From a virus, in IMG/VR virus record IMGVR_UViG_3300025864_000015, positions 1 through 62,966 of that record: a DNA stretch of 62,966 bases, one strand, 5' to 3'. This document shows, in pieces, positions 25,564-37,842 of the stretch. Numbering within the stretch: the stretch's first letter is position 1; each line of letters opens with the position of its first letter. Position numbers and translations under genes: made by a program. The notes below the pieces were generated by a model. It was given only the letters and a program-made list of their open reading frames with translations. It had not been told where the DNA came from and made no database searches.

Positions 25564-25749
25564 ATGAGATTCGCTATAAGGGGAATCACGGCCGCCGGAG
25601 CCGCCGCCATCCTTGGCGTTCACAAGTCGACGGTTACCAGGTGGATAGCCGCCGGGAAGTTGCCCGCACAGCGCTCCCCCGGCGGCCACTACCGGATTCG
25701 GCCTAGTGACGTGGCGAAGATGGAGCGCCGGCAACGCGGATGTTCATAA
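25564..25749 (+). CDS. Excisionase-like MerR-type HTH protein
   Basis: 61 residues. GITAAGAAAILGVHKSTVTR plus WIAAGKLPAQRSPGGHYRI and a final SDVAKME is the HTH_17/excisionase fold: a winged helix with a GGHYRI wing. Small proteins of this form act as recombination directionality factors. There is no ribosome site; a TAATCT -10-like box lies 7 nt before the ATG, so the mRNA may be leaderless. It is 5 kb from the integrase, so a regulator role is also possible. Confidence 0.75.
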   Translation: MRFAIRGITAAGAAAILGVHKSTVTRWIAAGKLPAQRSPGGHYRIRPSDVAKMERRQRGCS

Positions 25750-26082
25750 TCCGTACTCCTGTCGCATGCGCTCCCAAAACTTAGGAGCTTCAACGGCGAC
25801 GATAGCCCGCGTCTCCTGATTCAGCGCCCACGTCTCGCCCTGGTTGTCCATGCGCCTGTGGTGGATGGCGCAGCCCGGCGCACCCTCGTCGAATGCCCAT
25901 GATGCGTTGTGTCCACCATGGCCGCGGTGACGGGGCCAGTGACAGAAACAAGTGGGCGTCGCCTCACAGCCGGGGATAATGCAGGGCAGTTCCCGATACA
26001 AAAGGCGGTACGTCTCGTCGGGCTTGGCCTTCCGCCGCTTCGTCTTCCCCGGTTTGGGAATCGGCGCGCAGGTGTCGCTCAC
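25744..26082 (-). CDS. HNH-like zinc nuclease domain protein
   Basis: 112 residues from GTG 26082, overlapping the CCA enzyme stop (GTGA). Basic N-terminus, then RELPCIIPGCEATPTCFCHW, RHRGHGGHN and APGCAIHHRRMDNQG, the Cys/His layout of HNH-type (DUF968/NinG-like) nucleases. Last gene of the RNA-repair operon; whether it acts on RNA or DNA is open. Confidence 0.65.
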   Translation of the reverse strand: MSDTCAPIPKPGKTKRRKAKPDETYRLLYRELPCIIPGCEATPTCFCHWPRHRGHGGHNASWAFDEGAPGCAIHHRRMDNQGETWALNQETRAIVAVEAPKFWERMRQEYGL

Positions 26083-27107
26083 CCCGCCACACACGCCAAC
26101 TTCTGCGCCCCAGAGTCCGCCGCCTTCAGCGGTGAGTCTTCGAGCAGGTGGTCGCGCACTAGCCCGCTGACGATCTCCGTGCGGGCGTTGCTCCACTTGA
26201 GGTACGCGGCCAGCTTGCGCACCATCTCGTAGCCCAACATGTCGTGCTTGATGTAGTTGCTGCGATCTGGCCGCTCCGTGCGCGTCGCCGGCTTGCCGAT
26301 GTCGTGCAGGAGCGCCGCCCAGCGGATGCTCGGCTCAGGCGGCGTCGCCTCGACCACGCGGCAGGTGTGCTCCCAGAGCGTGAAGTCGTGGTGCGGCGTG
26401 TTCTGGTCGTAGCCGACCTGCACCGCCAGCTCCGGCAGGATGAAGTTGAGTAGGCGAGTCTCCCGGAGCACCCCGAGTCCATGCTTGACGTTGGGGCCGC
26501 ACAGCAGTTTGTCCATCTCCGCCATCCACCGCTCCCGGCTCACGCCCAGCACCTTGTACGACAGTTCGCGGGCGTGCTTCATGGTTGTCGGCTCCGCCAC
26601 GAACCCCAGTTGCGACGCGAATCGCGCCAGCCGCAGTATCCTGAGCGGATCTTCGCGGAAGCGGTGTGACGGCGTGCCGACGGCGCGCAGGATGCCCTCC
26701 GTGAGATCGTCCTGTCCGCCGAATGGGTCGATGAGCCGGCGCCCACGCATCGCCATGGCGTTGATCGTGAAGTCTCGGCGGCTCAGGTCGTGGGTGATGT
26801 TGCTGACGAACACGACCGCGGGTTTGCGACTCCCCGCCGTGTACTTCTCCGAGCGAAACGTGGTGATCTCGACGTAGCGCCACTCGCCTCCCACGTTGAC
26901 CTTCAGGCCGACCGTGCCAAATCGGCTGCCGACGAGATACGGCTTGCGGCCGGCGGCACGGACTAGCGCCTCAACCTCGGCGGGCAAGAGCGGCGTACTG
27001 AAGTCATAATCCTTCGGCTCGCTGCCGAGCACCTGGTCGCGCACGGCCCCGCCGACGAGGTAGACGGGCGAAACGATCTCGGCGACGGTATCGTAGACGG
27101 CTGTCAA
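26079..27107 (-). CDS. cca: CCA-adding tRNA nucleotidyltransferase with HD domain
   Basis: 342 residues from TTG 27107, inferred because it overlaps the upstream TGA (TTGA) with GGGGGA before it; there is no ATG near. Polβ head: YLVGGAVRDQVLG (GGxVR) and KDYDFS (DxD metal site), RRDFTINAMAM, then the tRNA-enzyme signature FREDPLRILRLARFASQLGF. The C-terminus has an HD hydrolase motif (ALLHDIGKPATR). It adds or repairs the 3' CCA of tRNA using CTP and ATP; the HD part may remove 2',3'-cyclic phosphate, as in E. coli Cca. Operon mates RtcB and an RlaP-like enzyme point to tRNA repair. Confidence 0.93.
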   Translation of the reverse strand: MTAVYDTVAEIVSPVYLVGGAVRDQVLGSEPKDYDFSTPLLPAEVEALVRAAGRKPYLVGSRFGTVGLKVNVGGEWRYVEITTFRSEKYTAGSRKPAVVFVSNITHDLSRRDFTINAMAMRGRRLIDPFGGQDDLTEGILRAVGTPSHRFREDPLRILRLARFASQLGFVAEPTTMKHARELSYKVLGVSRERWMAEMDKLLCGPNVKHGLGVLRETRLLNFILPELAVQVGYDQNTPHHDFTLWEHTCRVVEATPPEPSIRWAALLHDIGKPATRTERPDRSNYIKHDMLGYEMVRKLAAYLKWSNARTEIVSGLVRDHLLEDSPLKAADSGAQKLACVAG

Positions 27108-27772
27108 TTCATCCCCCGGATTTCCAGTAGTAGTTCGTTGACGACTGCGTACTCCGGCTCCACGGGCAGCGGTGAGTCGATGCCGTCCATCTCGGCCATC
27201 GCCGCTTGAAACCATGCCCGCAGTTCTGCGACGGGCAGCGTCCCTAGGTCGAACAATTCGTCGCGGTCCTTGACGCGGATGTCGAGCGTGCCATCGCGGA
27301 GCAACTGCGCGCCTTGCTGGCAGAGACGGCCAAGGTGACGGGCGTGCTTCTCGTAACGCTTCGTGACCTTGGGGCCGAAGCCGACCATCCCCTGCCGTTC
27401 GCGCGTCTCAAGTTTCTTCATCTGCTGGATCGCGTAGCCGCCGTATGTCTGCCGGACGCGCTGCGACAGGAACGCGAGGCGGTTGTGCGTCAGCAAGCCG
27501 CCCTCGGCGGTCAGCGTCGGGTAGTCGTTGAGAAACAACTGCTCGATAATGCTCGGATTGCCGGCCAGCGCCAAGCGGATGAACTTGCCGACCTCGTGCA
27601 GCACCGTCTCGTGGCCTGTATCGTCGACCGTCTCCGGGCCGCGGAACTTCGGCAGGCCGAGGATGGTGTCCGTGGGATAGACGAAGACGCCGCGCCAGTC
27701 TTCGTCGGAGTCCGGCGTATCGAGGCCGTATGCCTTGCTGCCGGCGAGTCCGAGCAGAATGGTCCGTCTCAC
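27104..27772 (-). CDS. RlaP-like Polβ-superfamily nucleotidyltransferase
   Basis: 222 residues from GTG 27772, overlapping the RtcB stop. LLGLAGSKAYGLDTPDSDED followed by WRGVFVYPTD is the GSxAYG ... SDxD active site of the nucleotidyltransferase family (PF10127, RlaP) that is recurrently linked to RNA ligases. A helical C-terminal part (RYEKHARHLGRLCQQGAQLL) follows. The predicted role is to modify or extend RNA ends before or after ligation; the substrate is unknown. Tight coupling to RtcB and Cca supports a shared pathway. Confidence 0.85.
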   Translation of the reverse strand: MRRTILLGLAGSKAYGLDTPDSDEDWRGVFVYPTDTILGLPKFRGPETVDDTGHETVLHEVGKFIRLALAGNPSIIEQLFLNDYPTLTAEGGLLTHNRLAFLSQRVRQTYGGYAIQQMKKLETRERQGMVGFGPKVTKRYEKHARHLGRLCQQGAQLLRDGTLDIRVKDRDELFDLGTLPVAELRAWFQAAMAEMDGIDSPLPVEPEYAVVNELLLEIRGMN

Positions 27773-28953
27773 GCTTTCACCACGGCCAGCGGCCTGAGCT
27801 TTGTCGTGATCCGCACGAGATCCGCCTGATTGGCCATCACCACGTCGATGTCGTGGTATGCCCGCCGGCATTCCTCGGCAACGTCGGCCTTCTTCACCTT
27901 GTACAGCGCGATGTCCGCGGCCTCCATCTCGGCGAGCACGTCGGCGGCGGGTATCGCCCTCTGCGCAGCCTTCCGGCCCATTGCCCGTCCGGCTCCGTGT
28001 GAGCACGACATGAACGACTCGCGGTTGCCGAGGCCCGCGCCGATGTAGCTGGCGCTGCCCATGCTGCCGGGAATGATGACGGTCTCGCCTTCGCGAGCTC
28101 TGACGGCTCCCTTCCGGTGCACCATCACGTTCTTGCCGAAGTGGTTTTCCATGGCGGCGTAGTTGTGGTGGATGTCGATCTCGTCGCCCCAGCCGATGCC
28201 CTCGCGGTACAGCACGCTCTGAATGGCGTGCATCATGTGCTCGCGGTTGAGGTAGGCGAAGCGGAGGCAGGCGTTCATCTCGGCGAGGTAGGTCTGACCC
28301 TCGTCTGAGTCGAGCGGCAGGAACGCCAGTTCGTGATCCTTGGGCACCGACGAATGCCAGCGCGCGTTCATCTCGATGGCGAGTTTGTTGTAGTGCTTCG
28401 CCACCTGAAAGCCGACGTTTCGGCTGCCAGAGTGGAGCATGAACGCCACACCAGAAAGTTCGTCGTCGCCCGTTGCCTGCGCCTCGATGAAGTGATTGCC
28501 GCCGCCGAGGGTGCCTATCTGATACAGGGACTTTTCGTACTCGCGCTCGAGGATGGGCGTTTCACCGTACAGCGTGACCTCCGTGAAGAGGTCGAGCCAA
28601 TCGGGTTGCTTCGCGTGATGGTGATTGAAGCCGGTCGGAATCGCGCGCTGGATCTCGTGCATAATGGCATCGCGGCGATCCATGAATCGCGCCAGGGGGC
28701 AGGTAAGCGCGAACGCCCTCATCCCGCAGCCGATGTCCACGCCGACCGCGTTGGGAATCACGACTCCCTGCGTGGCGAGCACGCCGCCTATGGGCATCCC
28801 GTAGCCTTGGTGGCAATCGCCCATGATGGCGACGTGCCGGAAGGCGAAGGGCAGTTCGGCTAGGTGCCGCGCCTGCTCCATCGCGCCCGCTTCTACGTCG
28901 TCCGTCCATATCTTGAGCGGCACTCGTCCGCTTGCGTCAACCTGCATGCTCAC
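27769..28953 (-). CDS. rtcB: RtcB RNA ligase
   Basis: 394 residues from GTG 28953 (GTGA overlap); ATG 28947 is an alternative. RtcB landmarks: MGDCHQGYGMPIGGVLAT, VGVDIGCGMRAF (Mn-binding D73, C76), GTLGGGNHFIE, MLHSGSRNVG, VRAREGETVIIPGSMG and the guanylylated His319 in CSHGAGRAMGR. It joins 2',3'-cyclic-phosphate and 5'-OH RNA ends using GTP and Mn2+, sealing tRNAs cut by anticodon nucleases. All catalytic residues are present and no archease gene is seen in the window. Confidence 0.96.
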   Translation of the reverse strand: MSMQVDASGRVPLKIWTDDVEAGAMEQARHLAELPFAFRHVAIMGDCHQGYGMPIGGVLATQGVVIPNAVGVDIGCGMRAFALTCPLARFMDRRDAIMHEIQRAIPTGFNHHHAKQPDWLDLFTEVTLYGETPILEREYEKSLYQIGTLGGGNHFIEAQATGDDELSGVAFMLHSGSRNVGFQVAKHYNKLAIEMNARWHSSVPKDHELAFLPLDSDEGQTYLAEMNACLRFAYLNREHMMHAIQSVLYREGIGWGDEIDIHHNYAAMENHFGKNVMVHRKGAVRAREGETVIIPGSMGSASYIGAGLGNRESFMSCSHGAGRAMGRKAAQRAIPAADVLAEMEAADIALYKVKKADVAEECRRAYHDIDVVMANQADLVRITTKLRPLAVVKA

Positions 28954-29126
28954 CGCGTCACCCACAGCAGCAACACGACCGTGAACGCGATGCTCCAGAC
29001 GACGCTCCACGCGGCCGTCTCTTTCGTGATCGGCTCCCGCGGCACGCCAATGAGCGCGACCTTACTGAGGGCGTCGAGGGCGAGGAGGGCGATGATGAGG
29101 TAGACGAACCATGCGGGGATGGTCAT
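28950..29126 (-). CDS. 58-residue two-TM protein of the RNA-repair operon
   Basis: ATG 29126 overlaps the previous stop and its stop overlaps rtcB. MTIPAWFVYLIIALLALDAL is a TM helix, then a polar KVALIGVPREPITKETAA loop and a second TM ending LLLWVTR. Its position suggests an operon-specific role, but none is known. Confidence 0.65.
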   Translation of the reverse strand: MTIPAWFVYLIIALLALDALSKVALIGVPREPITKETAAWSVVWSIAFTVVLLLWVTR

Positions 29127-29365
29127 GATTCGACCTCGTAAAACGGCACGCCAGCCAGCACGGTGAATCGCTGCCGCCGGCGCCGTGCCTTCTCCTGCGC
29201 CCTGTTCGGCACCTCGCCTCTCCACGTCAGCAGTGGATGCTTGTTCCAGCCGATGAGTGAGGGCTCGGATGCGTGCTTGGGCAGGCGCTTGGTCTGACGT
29301 TCCGGTCGACCCGTCTCCAGAAGGCGCTGAAGGCGGCGGGCCTGCTTCGCGCGACGCTCACTCAT
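29123..29365 (-). CDS. Small very basic protein
   Basis: 80 residues, about a quarter Arg/Lys, e.g. SERRAKQARRLQRLLETGR and EKARRRRQRFTVLAG. Overlaps both neighbours by 4 nt. It could bind nucleic acid (RNA, given the operon) or be a charge-rich accessory protein; no family recognised. Confidence 0.6.
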   Translation of the reverse strand: MSERRAKQARRLQRLLETGRPERQTKRLPKHASEPSLIGWNKHPLLTWRGEVPNRAQEKARRRRQRFTVLAGVPFYEVES

Positions 29366-29592
29366 AGTACGGCCCTCAGCGCCGGCGCTTCCCGCTGGTA
29401 GCAGAGCAGCCGTTCCTGCAGGTTCGCGATTTGCAGCTTGGACTGCATGGAGCGGATGTTCTTGCGCAGCAGGCAGTTTCGGCGCTGCGTGCGCCCTAGT
29501 TCGTACTCCAGTTCGGCGACGTATTGTCTGACCTCCGGGGGTAGTGATTGAAGGTGCAGGGCTGTTCGCGCTGATCCTTTGGCGATATGCAT
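29362..29592 (-). CDS. Small coiled-coil protein, first gene of the RNA-repair operon
   Basis: 76 residues from ATG 29592 with GGAGG 4 nt upstream. SLPPEVRQYVAELEYELGRT is followed by a basic heptad helix (LRKNIRSMQSKLQIANLQER). It is the first product of the promoter at 29616-29648, ahead of the basic protein, membrane protein and RtcB. Confidence 0.65.
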   Translation of the reverse strand: MHIAKGSARTALHLQSLPPEVRQYVAELEYELGRTQRRNCLLRKNIRSMQSKLQIANLQERLLCYQREAPALRAVL

Positions 29593-29718: not shown

Positions 29719-29892
29719 ATGGGAAGCTTCAACGAAGCGTGCATACAGCCGCTGCCGCCGGTCCCCGGCGTCGTCTGCCCGTTCGACGGCGCGCAACTCG
29801 AGAACTGGCACGACTGCAACGGATACACGCAATTCATCTGCCCGGAGTGCGACTGTCGATTCCGGGCCGATGCGTGGGCGTCTCATGCCTGA
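29719..29892 (+). CDS. 57-residue zinc-ribbon protein
   Basis: GGAG lies 6 nt before ATG 29719. Two Cys sets, VVCPFDGAQLENWHDC and FICPECDCRFRA, give a compact zinc ribbon. The end overlaps the next gene. Such peptides are common in phage early regions and may bind nucleic acid or host proteins. Confidence 0.68.
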   Translation: MGSFNEACIQPLPPVPGVVCPFDGAQLENWHDCNGYTQFICPECDCRFRADAWASHA

Positions 29893-30310
29893 CGATCCGA
29901 GAGAAGTCCTCGCGGCAGCGGGCGTGGAGTGTGCGGAGGTGGAACAACTACAGGGGGCCATCGACGTCGTGAACGCCTATCCGGGCGCCGACGATTTTGC
30001 CACAGAGATGACAATCGCATCGCTGCTCACCCACATCAACGAACTCAGGGATGACGCCATCCTCGCCCTCGCCCGGATCGTGGCGGAGAAGCAGCGGTTG
30101 CTGATATTGGCTTACGAGACTGACTTTCGCTACATCATGTCCTTCGACGAATGGCTGGCCGACCTTCCCGTGGACCAACGCCGCCCGCGCGACCCCGGGG
30201 ACCCACTCCACAGCCGTTGGGATGCGCACCATCGCGGCGTTGACGATGCCCCGCGAACCGGCTGGCACCACCTCAAGGGCTGCTACTGCCCCTACTGCAA
30301 GGATGCGTGA
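29885..30310 (+). CDS. Hypothetical protein with C-terminal Cys motif
   Basis: 141 residues from ATG 29885. Helical N-terminal 85 residues (LLTHINELRDDAILALARIV) with an acidic tail motif SFDEWLADLPVDQRRP, then a C-terminal CYCPYCKDA knuckle. Couples to the next gene. No family recognised. Confidence 0.68.
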   Translation: MPDDPREVLAAAGVECAEVEQLQGAIDVVNAYPGADDFATEMTIASLLTHINELRDDAILALARIVAEKQRLLILAYETDFRYIMSFDEWLADLPVDQRRPRDPGDPLHSRWDAHHRGVDDAPRTGWHHLKGCYCPYCKDA

Positions 30311-30803: not shown

Positions 30804-31946
30804 ATGCCCGGCAGCATCTCTAAGCGCGCGAACAAAGACGGCACCTTCTCCTGGCTCGTCACCGTGCCCGTCGGCTACGGTCGCCACGCCGGCAGGATCG
30901 TCAGAAGCGTTAGGGTCGCCAAGGAGACGAAGCACCCGCCGCAGAAGGCACGCGACCTACTGGCGCACTTGCAGCAACAGGCCGAGGGTGGCGTCATCCC
31001 CAGCCACAAGCTCACCATGGGCGACCTCTTCGACCGCTGGCTCGCCGAGTGGGTCGACGACGACGACCGCTACGAGGCCGCCAGTCAGGACGCCTACCAC
31101 TCGACCGTCCGGCTGTACCTGCGGCCCGCCATCGGCCATATCCGCATCCTGTCGCTGCAGCCGACCCACGTGGCGGCACTCTGGAAGCAGATACGTGACG
31201 AGGGCTACGCGCTGTCATCGGTGCGCCGCTACTACGCCGCCCTGCACCTCTGCCTCAACTGGGGCATCCAGCACGGCTTGGTTTTGCGCAACGTCTGCGA
31301 CTCGGACGTGGCCAAGCTGCCGGGCAGGCGCCATGAGGAGCGGCCGGTACTGTCGCTGAAGCAGATGCTAGAGCTCTTGGGCAAGATCCGGGGAACGGAG
31401 ATGGCGCTTCCCATCCTCATCGCGATCAGCGCCGGCACAAGGCGCGGCGAGGCCATCGGCATGAAGTGGGGCGACGTGGACGTGATCGGCAGACGGCTGA
31501 TGGTCAGGCGCAGCCTGTGCCGCAAGAAGGGTCAGGGACTCGTCGAGAAGTGGCCCAAGGGACGCAAGCCGCGCATGGTGCCGATGCCCGACTTCGCCGC
31601 CACTGTGTTCGACGCTGCCAAGGAAGGCAAGCCCGACGGGTGGTACGTCTGCGGCGGCGAGCAGCCAATGAGTCCCGAGCGGGTCAGCAAGGGGTGGAAG
31701 GCGCTGCTCGTGGAACTGGAACTGCCGCCCATGAGGTTCCACGACTTACGGCACTCGTATGCCTCCGCACTCCTGGAGGCCGGAATCGACATGAAGCAGC
31801 TTTCCGAGATGCTCGGGCACCAGCAGATGAGCACCACTTCCGAGATTTACGCGCATGTCTCTGAGCGCATGAGGGAACGCACGCTGTCGGCGTTCAATCA
31901 GGCGGTGGTGGAGGCGGCGGCGCAAGGTACGCGATTGCGGCCATGA
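30804..31946 (+). CDS. int: Tyrosine-family integrase
   Basis: 380 residues. N-terminal AP2-like arm-binding domain (PGSISKRANKDGTFSWLV), SAM-like core-binding domain (residues 70-170, LTMGDLFDRWLAEWVDDDDR) and catalytic domain with R213 (SAGTRRGEAIG), H313-x2-R316 (FHDLRHSYA), H339 (MLGHQQMSTT) and nucleophile Y349. All catalytic residues are present. It makes the phage temperate. A TAGACT box sits 6 nt before the ATG and there is no ribosome site, suggesting a leaderless transcript. Its 3' end overlaps the convergent HNH gene by 53 nt. Confidence 0.95.
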   Translation: MPGSISKRANKDGTFSWLVTVPVGYGRHAGRIVRSVRVAKETKHPPQKARDLLAHLQQQAEGGVIPSHKLTMGDLFDRWLAEWVDDDDRYEAASQDAYHSTVRLYLRPAIGHIRILSLQPTHVAALWKQIRDEGYALSSVRRYYAALHLCLNWGIQHGLVLRNVCDSDVAKLPGRRHEERPVLSLKQMLELLGKIRGTEMALPILIAISAGTRRGEAIGMKWGDVDVIGRRLMVRRSLCRKKGQGLVEKWPKGRKPRMVPMPDFAATVFDAAKEGKPDGWYVCGGEQPMSPERVSKGWKALLVELELPPMRFHDLRHSYASALLEAGIDMKQLSEMLGHQQMSTTSEIYAHVSERMRERTLSAFNQAVVEAAAQGTRLRP

Positions 31947-32941: not shown

Positions 32942-33354
32942 CACTTGCTCCTCTGATTGATTTGCCTGTGGTATTCTGTCTTGCTGAGAATGTTGGCCAA
33001 CTCGCACCGCCCCCTCTTGCTCCAAATGCAGCGAGCGCACCCGATAGGGTCAAACGGACAACCATAGTGCTGTTCTGCGTAGTCTCCGGTCACCCCGCCC
33101 CCCTCACGTCATGATATTCTGTCTCCATGGCCAGCCTCACAGATAGTTCATTTTCAAACACGGCGCACACTGGGCGCACATCCGCGAGCCGTCCGCGTTG
33201 CCCGTTTCCGCAAAGTACCTGCAAATTGCACCCTGCCGACGTAGCTCAGTAGGCCAGAGCACATCACTCGTAATGATGTGACGGCAGGCTGCAGCACGGC
33301 CTGAATCCGGCTCGCAGGCTCGAAACAGCCCCGCCTTTGCCCATCCTTCCACGG
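32942..33354. other. Gene-poor stretch holding a tRNA-like element
   Basis: About 410 bp. A 71-codon minus frame (33352-33137) exists but has no ribosome site and runs antisense to the tRNA-like sequence, so I do not call it. GC falls near 32950-33000 and 33115-33175. The only structured element seen is the tRNA-like one at 33232-33288. Confidence 0.55.
33232..33288 (+). tRNA. tRNA-Thr(CGU)-like element lacking a recognisable T arm
   Basis: The D arm (GCTC-AGTAGGCCA-GAGC, 33244-33260) and anticodon arm (CATCA-CTCGTAA-TGATG, 33262-33278; anticodon CGT at 33269-33271, Thr) are textbook, preceded by TA at positions 8-9. Downstream, no GGTTCRAATCC arm or matching acceptor strand fits. Instead CCTGCCG (33232-33238) pairs perfectly with CGGCAGG (33282-33288), just 3 nt after the anticodon stem. 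It may be a T-armless mini-tRNA, a decayed tRNA, or the host-tRNA fragment of attP. Confidence 0.42.
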
Positions 33355-34298: not shown

Positions 34299-34714
34299 GC
34301 CCGCCCCCTCTTCACTGGCATGAACTGCCGGGGAAGCCTCAACTGCTGAGGCGGCCCCGCGGTCACCTTGCGTGGCGGACGGAGGAAGATGGCGCGCCAA
34401 TACTTGACCAGCATGTCCTTCGAGCCACGCCATGCCTTCGGTTGCCGCACGCCCACGAAGCAGTACCCGGCCCTTCCGCGCCGCCCCTCGATGATCCAGC
34501 CGTGGTGGCGCCAACACTCGACGGCCTCATAGACGATGCAGGGGTCACCGCCAAGTTCCTCCTCAAGATGGACGATTTGATACTTGTGGTCGGATAGCAG
34601 GTCGCCGACGGCCTCGAAGTAGGTTTTCCGCAGGGCTGGATTCTGGCGCGGACTCTTCGGGTCATCGAACGCATACCAGCTGTGACTCTGGCGCGTCAGC
34701 AGGACCTCAGCCAT
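34295..34714 (-). CDS. Hypothetical protein, possible winged helix
   Basis: 139 residues. SHSWYAFDDPKSPRQNPALR, then a helix-turn-helix-like stretch (LLSDHKYQIVHLEEELGGDP, VYEAVECWRHHGWIIEGRRG) and a basic C-terminus. It may bind nucleic acid. The following radical SAM gene overlaps it by 8 nt. Confidence 0.62.
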   Translation of the reverse strand: MAEVLLTRQSHSWYAFDDPKSPRQNPALRKTYFEAVGDLLSDHKYQIVHLEEELGGDPCIVYEAVECWRHHGWIIEGRRGRAGYCFVGVRQPKAWRGSKDMLVKYWRAIFLRPPRKVTAGPPQQLRLPRQFMPVKRGRA

Positions 34715-35600
34715 ACGTCACCAGTTTCGTCTTAAACGTCGCCTGCCACTCTTCCCACGTCATCGAGTTGAACGCGACCATGTTGTTGACCCAGCGAGCG
34801 AACCTGCGCTGGTAGGGGTCGTTGCGCTTGTACGGCATCACGAACGGGTCGGCACCTAGCGACCTGACGATCTCGACGCGCTCCATGTCTTCCTCTGGCG
34901 TTGAGTCAAAGCCGACCAGGACGTAGAACATGAGGCGTCCGGCGGGCCATCCTGCACGCTGCATCATGGCGACGGCGGCGCGCACTGACTGTTCGTCCCG
35001 CACGTGGTCAAAGGCCATGTGGATACTTTTCGTCGTGCGAGATCTCCGCAGCGTTTCTGCGTGATCGTCAGTGAGTAGGCGGGCGTCAAGTCCCTGGCTG
35101 AAGTCGAGCGCGCAGTTCGCAGCCGTGGCGTCGGCGCACAGTTTGCGGAAGTGGTCGAGCGGAGCGGCAGTCACGTTGCCGTCGATGAGATGCAGGATCT
35201 CGCGGCCCGTCCAGATGTCTCCAAACTCCGCGACGATGCGCAGGGGACCGTCCTTCTTCGGCACCACGCAGAACGGGCAGCGTCGCGGGCAGCCACGGGT
35301 CGAGTAGCCGATGTCGTCTTTCCACCACGGCCACAGCGACCAGTCCGGCTTGGTGTGCTCAATCTCGTCGTCAAGCACCGTCATGAGGTCGTAGCCGCTG
35401 CCGCCGCGCACCGCGTCCTCGGGCAGGTACGGATCATCCGGTGTGTCGGTGAATACTTTGCTCGCATAGGTGGTATCGGCGGGGCTGATCGGCACAAAAT
35501 CGCCGACGAGATCTCCACGTCGCAAATGTGAAGTCGCCAACTTCGCCAGCGCGAGGTTCGGCCACTTGCCGTCGACTTGGGCGATGGCGATTCTAGCCAT
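34707..35600 (-). CDS. Radical SAM enzyme
   Basis: 297 residues. After about 95 residues of a Rossmann-like N-terminus (ARIAIAQVDGKWPNLALAKL) comes the 4Fe-4S motif GYSTRGCPRRCPFC with C104, C108, C111 (CX3CX2C). TIM-barrel features follow: LIDGNVTA, LDFSQGLDARLL, IHMAFDHV, FYVLVGFDSTPEEDMERV. The layout resembles B12-binding/radical SAM or MiaB-like tRNA-modifying families, without a TRAM domain. It probably modifies a nucleotide or RNA/DNA base; the substrate is unknown. Confidence 0.85.
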   Translation of the reverse strand: MARIAIAQVDGKWPNLALAKLATSHLRRGDLVGDFVPISPADTTYASKVFTDTPDDPYLPEDAVRGGSGYDLMTVLDDEIEHTKPDWSLWPWWKDDIGYSTRGCPRRCPFCVVPKKDGPLRIVAEFGDIWTGREILHLIDGNVTAAPLDHFRKLCADATAANCALDFSQGLDARLLTDDHAETLRRSRTTKSIHMAFDHVRDEQSVRAAVAMMQRAGWPAGRLMFYVLVGFDSTPEEDMERVEIVRSLGADPFVMPYKRNDPYQRRFARWVNNMVAFNSMTWEEWQATFKTKLVTYG

Positions 35601-37525: not shown

Positions 37526-37842
37526 GGAGCCACCGCGAACGCCACTGCCCACACCATCGGGTCCGCGTCCGTCGCCATTTTGTTGATCGTGTAGAAAGCT
37601 GTCAGGTAGGTGCCGATGCCGGTGTAGCCTTCGGCAACGGCGTCGTCGTGGGATATGGACCGCAGCAGTTCCTGCCACACGTCGAGGATGCGGACGTGGG
37701 CGAAGACGCTGGTGTTGTCGAGCATCCGGGTCTGGCACTGGTGGACAGCGCCGACGTTCCAGCGCTTCTTGCCGAGGCGGCGGGTCTGCGTCTTCGTGAG
37801 GGCGATGATGGGGGCGATGTGCTCTTGGCGGAAGAGGATCAC
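37522..37842 (-). CDS. ASCH-like domain protein
   Basis: 106 residues from GTG 37842. ILFRQEHIAPIIALTKTQTR then RLGKKRWNVGAVHQCQTRML and VRILDVWQELLRSIS fit the ASCH/PUA-like fold of phage proteins (FxxEhxxxIxxGxKTqTxR). ASCH domains bind RNA or modified bases. Coupled to the DUF5131 gene. Confidence 0.75.
   Translation of the reverse strand: MILFRQEHIAPIIALTKTQTRRLGKKRWNVGAVHQCQTRMLDNTSVFAHVRILDVWQELLRSISHDDAVAEGYTGIGTYLTAFYTINKMATDADPMVWAVAFAVAP

Follow-up and report, generated by a model that had tools for sequence, protein, structure and literature searches.

Why would a phage of ordinary genome size place three enzymes that act on RNA ends in one overlapping operon? The question is raised by the IMG/VR virus record IMGVR_UViG_3300025864_000015, a single record of 62,966 bases (analysed whole and called the window here), which encodes on its minus strand an RtcB-type RNA ligase, an RNA-ligase-associated nucleotidyltransferase (RlaP) and a CCA-type tRNA nucleotidyltransferase (Cca). 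In our judgement the operon is probably a phage tRNA-repair set that keeps translation running when host defence damages tRNAs; from the genomic context, the substrates would be tRNAs hit by that defence. A similar repair role is predicted in the part of a jumbo-phage review that treats these enzymes (PMC7824862, which draws on Burroughs and Aravind 2016), where RtcB, RlaP, Cca, Thg1 and PTH2 are considered together.

The operon runs without gaps from 29592 to 25744 on the minus strand and consists of seven genes, none with an internal stop, in the order coiled-coil, basic, membrane, RtcB, RlaP, Cca and HNH-like protein. All six junctions are 4-nucleotide overlaps (ATGA, ATGA, GTGA, GTGA, TTGA, GTGA), and a GGGAGG ribosome-binding site stands before the first gene. 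The first-pass annotation, made from the letters of the window, had given the position of the operon and the coordinates of every gene correctly to the base, and had described the enzymes as fused into a translationally coupled operon; with the six overlaps the genes do look translationally coupled, but they are separate overlapping genes and do not form a single polypeptide. Scans for sigma-70 promoters and terminators around the operon gave no excess over shuffled sequence. When the DNA of the whole operon was searched against named phages only short matches were obtained, nearly all of those listed being RtcB genes.

The three enzymes were identified as follows. RtcB (27769-28953, minus strand, GTG start, 394 aa) matched PF01139 at 2.2e-107 with 360 bits against a curated cut-off of 27, and its residues D73, C76, N153, H154, H174, H263 and H319, which make up the metal-binding Asp/Cys/His and guanylylation set, are present and align with those of archaeal and Thermus RtcB; the protein is predicted to be an RtcB-type ligase joining 3'-phosphate to 5'-OH RNA. 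RlaP (27104-27772, minus strand, GTG start, 222 aa), a Pol-beta nucleotidyltransferase, matched PF10127 at 4.3e-18 (66.3 bits, curated cut-off 23) and carries the GSxAYG and SDxD motifs. Its viral relatives were gathered with a four-sequence alignment, a single-protein scan of the viral contigs having given no matches; G11, S12, D23 and D25 are invariant in 28 viral homologues, and position 60 (E60) is always acidic (E or D), consistent with E60 being the third acid of the Pol-beta active site. The AlphaFold model of RlaP (mean pLDDT 93.8) shows a nucleotidyltransferase fold whose C-terminal half is helical. Cca (26079-27107, minus strand, TTG start, 342 aa), of class II and with an HD domain, matched PolyA_pol (PF01743, 2.4e-30), PolyA_pol_RNAbd (PF12627, 1.5e-11) and HD (PF01966, 1.7e-08). 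Over about 75 phage homologues its motifs GG.VRD, DxD, RRDFT and EDxxR are near-invariant, and the HD residues H247, H268, D269, H288 and H320 are kept at 84-92%. Its best NCBIfam match, TIGR02692, scored 250.5 bits and so fell under the equivalog cut-off of 438.8; the protein was therefore filed as a CCA-type tRNA nucleotidyltransferase, for which CCA addition is the likely activity. The identities proposed at first reading thus held for all three on Pfam and motif evidence, and for RlaP on a confident model as well, and the catalytic residues reported as visible (those of RtcB, GSxAYG/SDxD, and GGAVRD/DYD plus HD) were intact on alignment of homologues. PADLOC returned no defence model for RtcB or RlaP, and its sole match on Cca was a weak Cas10 in the HD part.

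How these enzymes might act together depends on the RNA ends they use. In the review (PMC7824862) RtcB acts on a 3'-phosphate or cyclic phosphate end; the roles predicted there are sealing of 2',3'-cyclic phosphate breaks for RtcB, replacement of missing nucleotides ahead of ligation for RlaP, and repair of tRNA 3' ends for CCA enzymes. Since RlaP and Cca extend a 3'-OH, no single linear pathway is available without end conversion, and this mismatch favours two parallel routes. By one, RtcB would seal anticodon-loop cuts bearing 2',3'-cyclic phosphate and 5'-OH ends; by the other, RlaP and Cca would rebuild, from a 3'-OH, tRNAs with lost nucleotides or damaged 3' ends. The HD domain of Cca is a candidate end-healer, possibly first stripping cyclic or 2'/3' phosphates: an HD domain is present in Escherichia coli Cca and absent from the poly(A) polymerase of that species (PMC10673834), and in E. 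coli Cca it acts as a 2',3'-cyclic phosphodiesterase and as a phosphatase (Yakunin 2004, cited in PMC10673834). One linear pathway, in which RlaP refills what was lost at an anticodon break, RtcB seals and Cca tidies the acceptor end, as in ATP-grasp systems, would fit the predicted pre-ligation role of RlaP (PMC7824862) and the adjoining RlaP and RtcB genes in the window and in the viral loci L243 (RlaP directly upstream of RtcB) and L193; it is nevertheless unlikely, because the end required by RtcB is a 3'-phosphate or a cyclic one (PMC7824862), the product of an NTP-adding Pol-beta enzyme ends in a 3'-OH, which RtcB is not known to use, and no enzyme of the operon is known to restore the phosphate. 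The suggestion in the first-pass annotation that the phage counters tRNA-cleaving immunity both by sealing anticodon cuts and by restoring 3' ends is accordingly retained as the best-supported reading, in line with the published predictions (PMC7824862), except that the chemistry of the 3' ends speaks against a single linear chain.

We examined if the three genes keep company elsewhere, using viral relatives of RlaP, Cca and RtcB and 80 bacterial RlaP loci. Among 50 viral contigs with the nearest relatives of the window Cca (whole contigs counted), RlaP was encoded in 40, an ATP-grasp RNA ligase in 22 and RtcB in 13, and nine of the 50 had RtcB, RlaP and Cca together; as a baseline, RlaP and Cca were each found in less than 1% of named phage records (427/50,697 and 457/50,697). 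When neighbours were compared without prior labels, RlaP was by far the most frequent real neighbour of viral Cca (54 of about 80 loci), and genes labelled Thg1-like and Pth2-like from reading their sequences were found at 12 and 10 of these loci. After Cca was collapsed at 70% identity, a same-strand RlaP lay within about 6 kb in 39 of 65 clusters and directly upstream in 22 of 65. A constant pairing of RlaP with Cca was only partly borne out, the rank correlation of their bit scores against the window being 0.52. No Cca was found within 6 kb of RlaP in the 80 bacterial loci, nearly all actinobacterial, so that the RlaP-Cca pair looks phage-specific in that sample.

The neighbourhood search for rtcB-RlaP-cca triplets suggested at first reading did find tight clusters, in L193 and L039. 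L193 (G075; IMGVR_UViG_2706794911_000004) has the three genes in the same order and strand arrangement as the window; it differs in a homing-type gene between RlaP and Cca, in a GC content of 34%, in proteins only 31-37% identical to those of the window, and in having no small upstream proteins of the window's kind. In L039 the order is different and RtcB is on the opposite strand. The RtcB proteins of L193 and L039 are only 31-36% identical to that of the window.

The ligase appears to be the changeable part. The nearest relatives of RlaP and Cca (71% and 71%) are in IMGVR_UViG_3300037264_000454 (G001, locus L002), where the two genes overlap as in the window and an HNH protein (57% identical) is also found, but where an ATP-grasp RNA ligase with a KIDGS motif lies upstream of RlaP-Cca in place of RtcB, which is absent, and several genes part the HNH gene from Cca. 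The window and G001 are otherwise different phages, and RlaP and Cca are among their best-kept genes. For RtcB the nearest relative (79%) belongs to another phage, G003, in which about 15 kb separate it from an RlaP-Cca pair of lower similarity (43%/50%), and with nearest relatives thus split between G001 and G003 the operon looks composite. We infer from these comparisons that RlaP plus Cca is a conserved unit across phages with an exchangeable ligase, RtcB in the window and, in other phages, an ATP-grasp ligase that may or may not come with Pnkp. More tentatively, the pair could be a phage tRNA 3'-end restoration unit, inherited or assembled apart from the ligase and able to join with sealing by RtcB or by an ATP-grasp ligase; where the ligase is RtcB, RlaP would then act on acceptor-side 3' ends and not on anticodon gaps, contrary to its currently predicted role, a proposal to which we give less than even odds. 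A small unknown protein of the window (29870-30310, plus strand) is common to G003 (L163, 8465-8851) and hints at a shared gene pool.

The fold of RlaP raises a different possibility. The closest solved fold to the model is that of HalB of the Hailong system (Z 10.3 over 168 residues, rmsd 3.3-3.8, 13-15% identity), followed by a nucleotidyltransferase-like protein and aminoglycoside nucleotidyltransferases (ANT) at Z 5.5-6.8. Hailong is a defence system producing single-stranded DNA oligomers (PMC12657230). RlaP could on these grounds be an untemplated oligonucleotide maker, or a modifier of another molecule (like HalB or MNT/ANT), that is simply co-carried with the repair genes. A search of RlaP by sequence against solved structures, profile included, reached neither HalB nor any other PDB chain, so the resemblance is a likeness of fold. 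The C-terminus of the window RlaP is GMN and does not have the C-terminal tyrosine of HalB, which we take to be the primer. RlaP moreover adjoins RtcB in the window and an ATP-grasp ligase or Pnkp in its relatives, and recurs beside RNA ligases, Pnkp, Cca, and Pth2-like and Thg1-like genes; a role outside repair is thus very unlikely. To our knowledge RlaP has so far been predicted and not characterised.

The enzymes might instead mature or maintain the tRNAs and transcripts of the phage itself, with no part in counter-defence. Some relatives do have tRNA arrays (eight tRNAs in L150), and the window has a tRNA-like element at 33235-33320 (plus strand), which scored 32 bits with the Rfam tRNA model (gathering threshold 29) and was missed by ARAGORN. 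The D and anticodon arms of this element resemble tRNA-Thr(CGU); its T arm and acceptor are degenerate, so it lacks the proper form of both, and ARAGORN found no tRNA in the window. Across 80 Cca loci there were nearby tRNAs at 13, and 34 of those 42 tRNAs already encode CCA. With few Cca loci having tRNAs, and most of these tRNAs encoding CCA, maturation of phage tRNAs is a poor alternative, to which we give only a slight chance.

Whether the operon serves the phage during infection or the lysogen afterwards bears on a further alternative. The window encodes terminase, portal and major head proteins together with replication and recombination genes, and a tyrosine integrase gene (30804-31946) adjoins the operon; from these the phage is probably temperate and tailed. 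The operon could then be accessory prophage cargo that shields the lysogen from toxins generally, putatively under selection in the lysogen and not in the course of infection, and a bacterial RtcB2-PrfH operon is described as protecting against colicin E3 (PMC9223846). The same enzyme set is, on the other hand, reported in jumbo phages (PMC7824862), and we consider the cargo explanation improbable.

Several points weigh against tRNA repair as counter-defence. The activities of the enzymes are predictions, and RtcB and the nucleotidyltransferases use different 3' ends, so one chain would need an end conversion; the closest solved fold to RlaP is a defence enzyme and no tRNA repair enzyme. We know of no host nuclease for the window phage. 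Among 40 contigs with close RtcB relatives RlaP was present in nine and Cca in two, which indicates that RtcB mostly works without them. The co-occurrence counts come from the nearest relatives of the window Cca, a non-random sample from which close kin were only partly removed.

Comparison with known systems sets out what may be new. The enzyme kit and its repair role are already described for jumbo phages (PMC7824862), where RtcB, RlaP and a CCA-adding enzyme are held to reverse tRNA cleavage as proposed for the window; what that part of the review describes is co-occurrence, while the window is a 63-kb integrase-bearing record in which the three genes belong to one operon of overlapping genes. 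The Pnkp/Rnl1 pair of phage T4 has the same purpose, re-sealing of anticodon-cleaved tRNA, by another ligase chemistry, and the window gave no match to AAA_33 (Pnkp) or PF09414 (ATP-grasp RNA ligase). The bacterial RtcB-PrfH pair likewise sets RtcB against damage done by toxins to the translation machinery; no PF00472 match (RF-1-type GGQ hydrolase) was found in the window, unlike G003, where an RF-1-type protein is encoded near RlaP-Cca. This GGQ release-factor-like protein (L163, 10226-10573) has an HNH homologue as its neighbour and lies about 3 kb downstream of RlaP-Cca. A limited literature search found no description of an ordinary-sized phage with a single operon of overlapping genes like this, of the recurrent RlaP-Cca adjacency or of the ligase swap around that pair; Burroughs and Aravind 2016 may cover part of this. 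The compact operon, together with relatives that differ only in the ligase, offers a small set of genes for testing on which tRNA ends RlaP acts and how phages undo tRNA-targeting immunity. It also points to a phage counter-defence that may extend beyond the sealing of anticodon cuts to the restoration of tRNA 3' ends.

The remaining four genes of the operon encode small proteins. Upstream of RtcB are a coiled-coil-like protein (29362-29592, minus strand, 76 aa), whose ATG follows the GGGAGG site; a basic protein of net charge +12 (29123-29365, minus strand, 80 aa, ATG within an ATGA overlap); and a protein with two hydrophobic stretches on hydropathy analysis, assigned to the membrane (28950-29126, minus strand, 58 aa, ATG within an ATGA overlap). 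The coiled-coil and basic proteins had no relatives in the 50,697 named phage records, the membrane protein had weak database matches only (PHROG 26874, 6.5e-4), and none of the three had relatives among the loci fetched. Nothing yet ties them to the repair system, as they had no confident relatives where searched; their combination with the enzymes had been thought undescribed, and of this the enzyme set is in fact described (PMC7824862), with membership of the small proteins in the system unsupported. The last gene encodes the HNH-like protein (25744-26082, minus strand, GTG start, 112 aa), which matched PHROG 131 weakly (E 3.5e-4) and gave no Pfam match and no match in named phages. Homologues lie downstream of RlaP-Cca in L002 and, more distant in sequence, in L163. 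The HNH-like label is a weak point of the annotation, although C34, C39, H48, C71 and H75 do not vary across three homologues. Elsewhere on the minus strand of the window are a DUF5131 protein (37839-38789), for which PADLOC also gave matches of about 1e-51 to its candidate models PDC-M41B and PDC-M30B, and a phage radical SAM protein (34707-35600; PHROG 9298, 1.4e-66).

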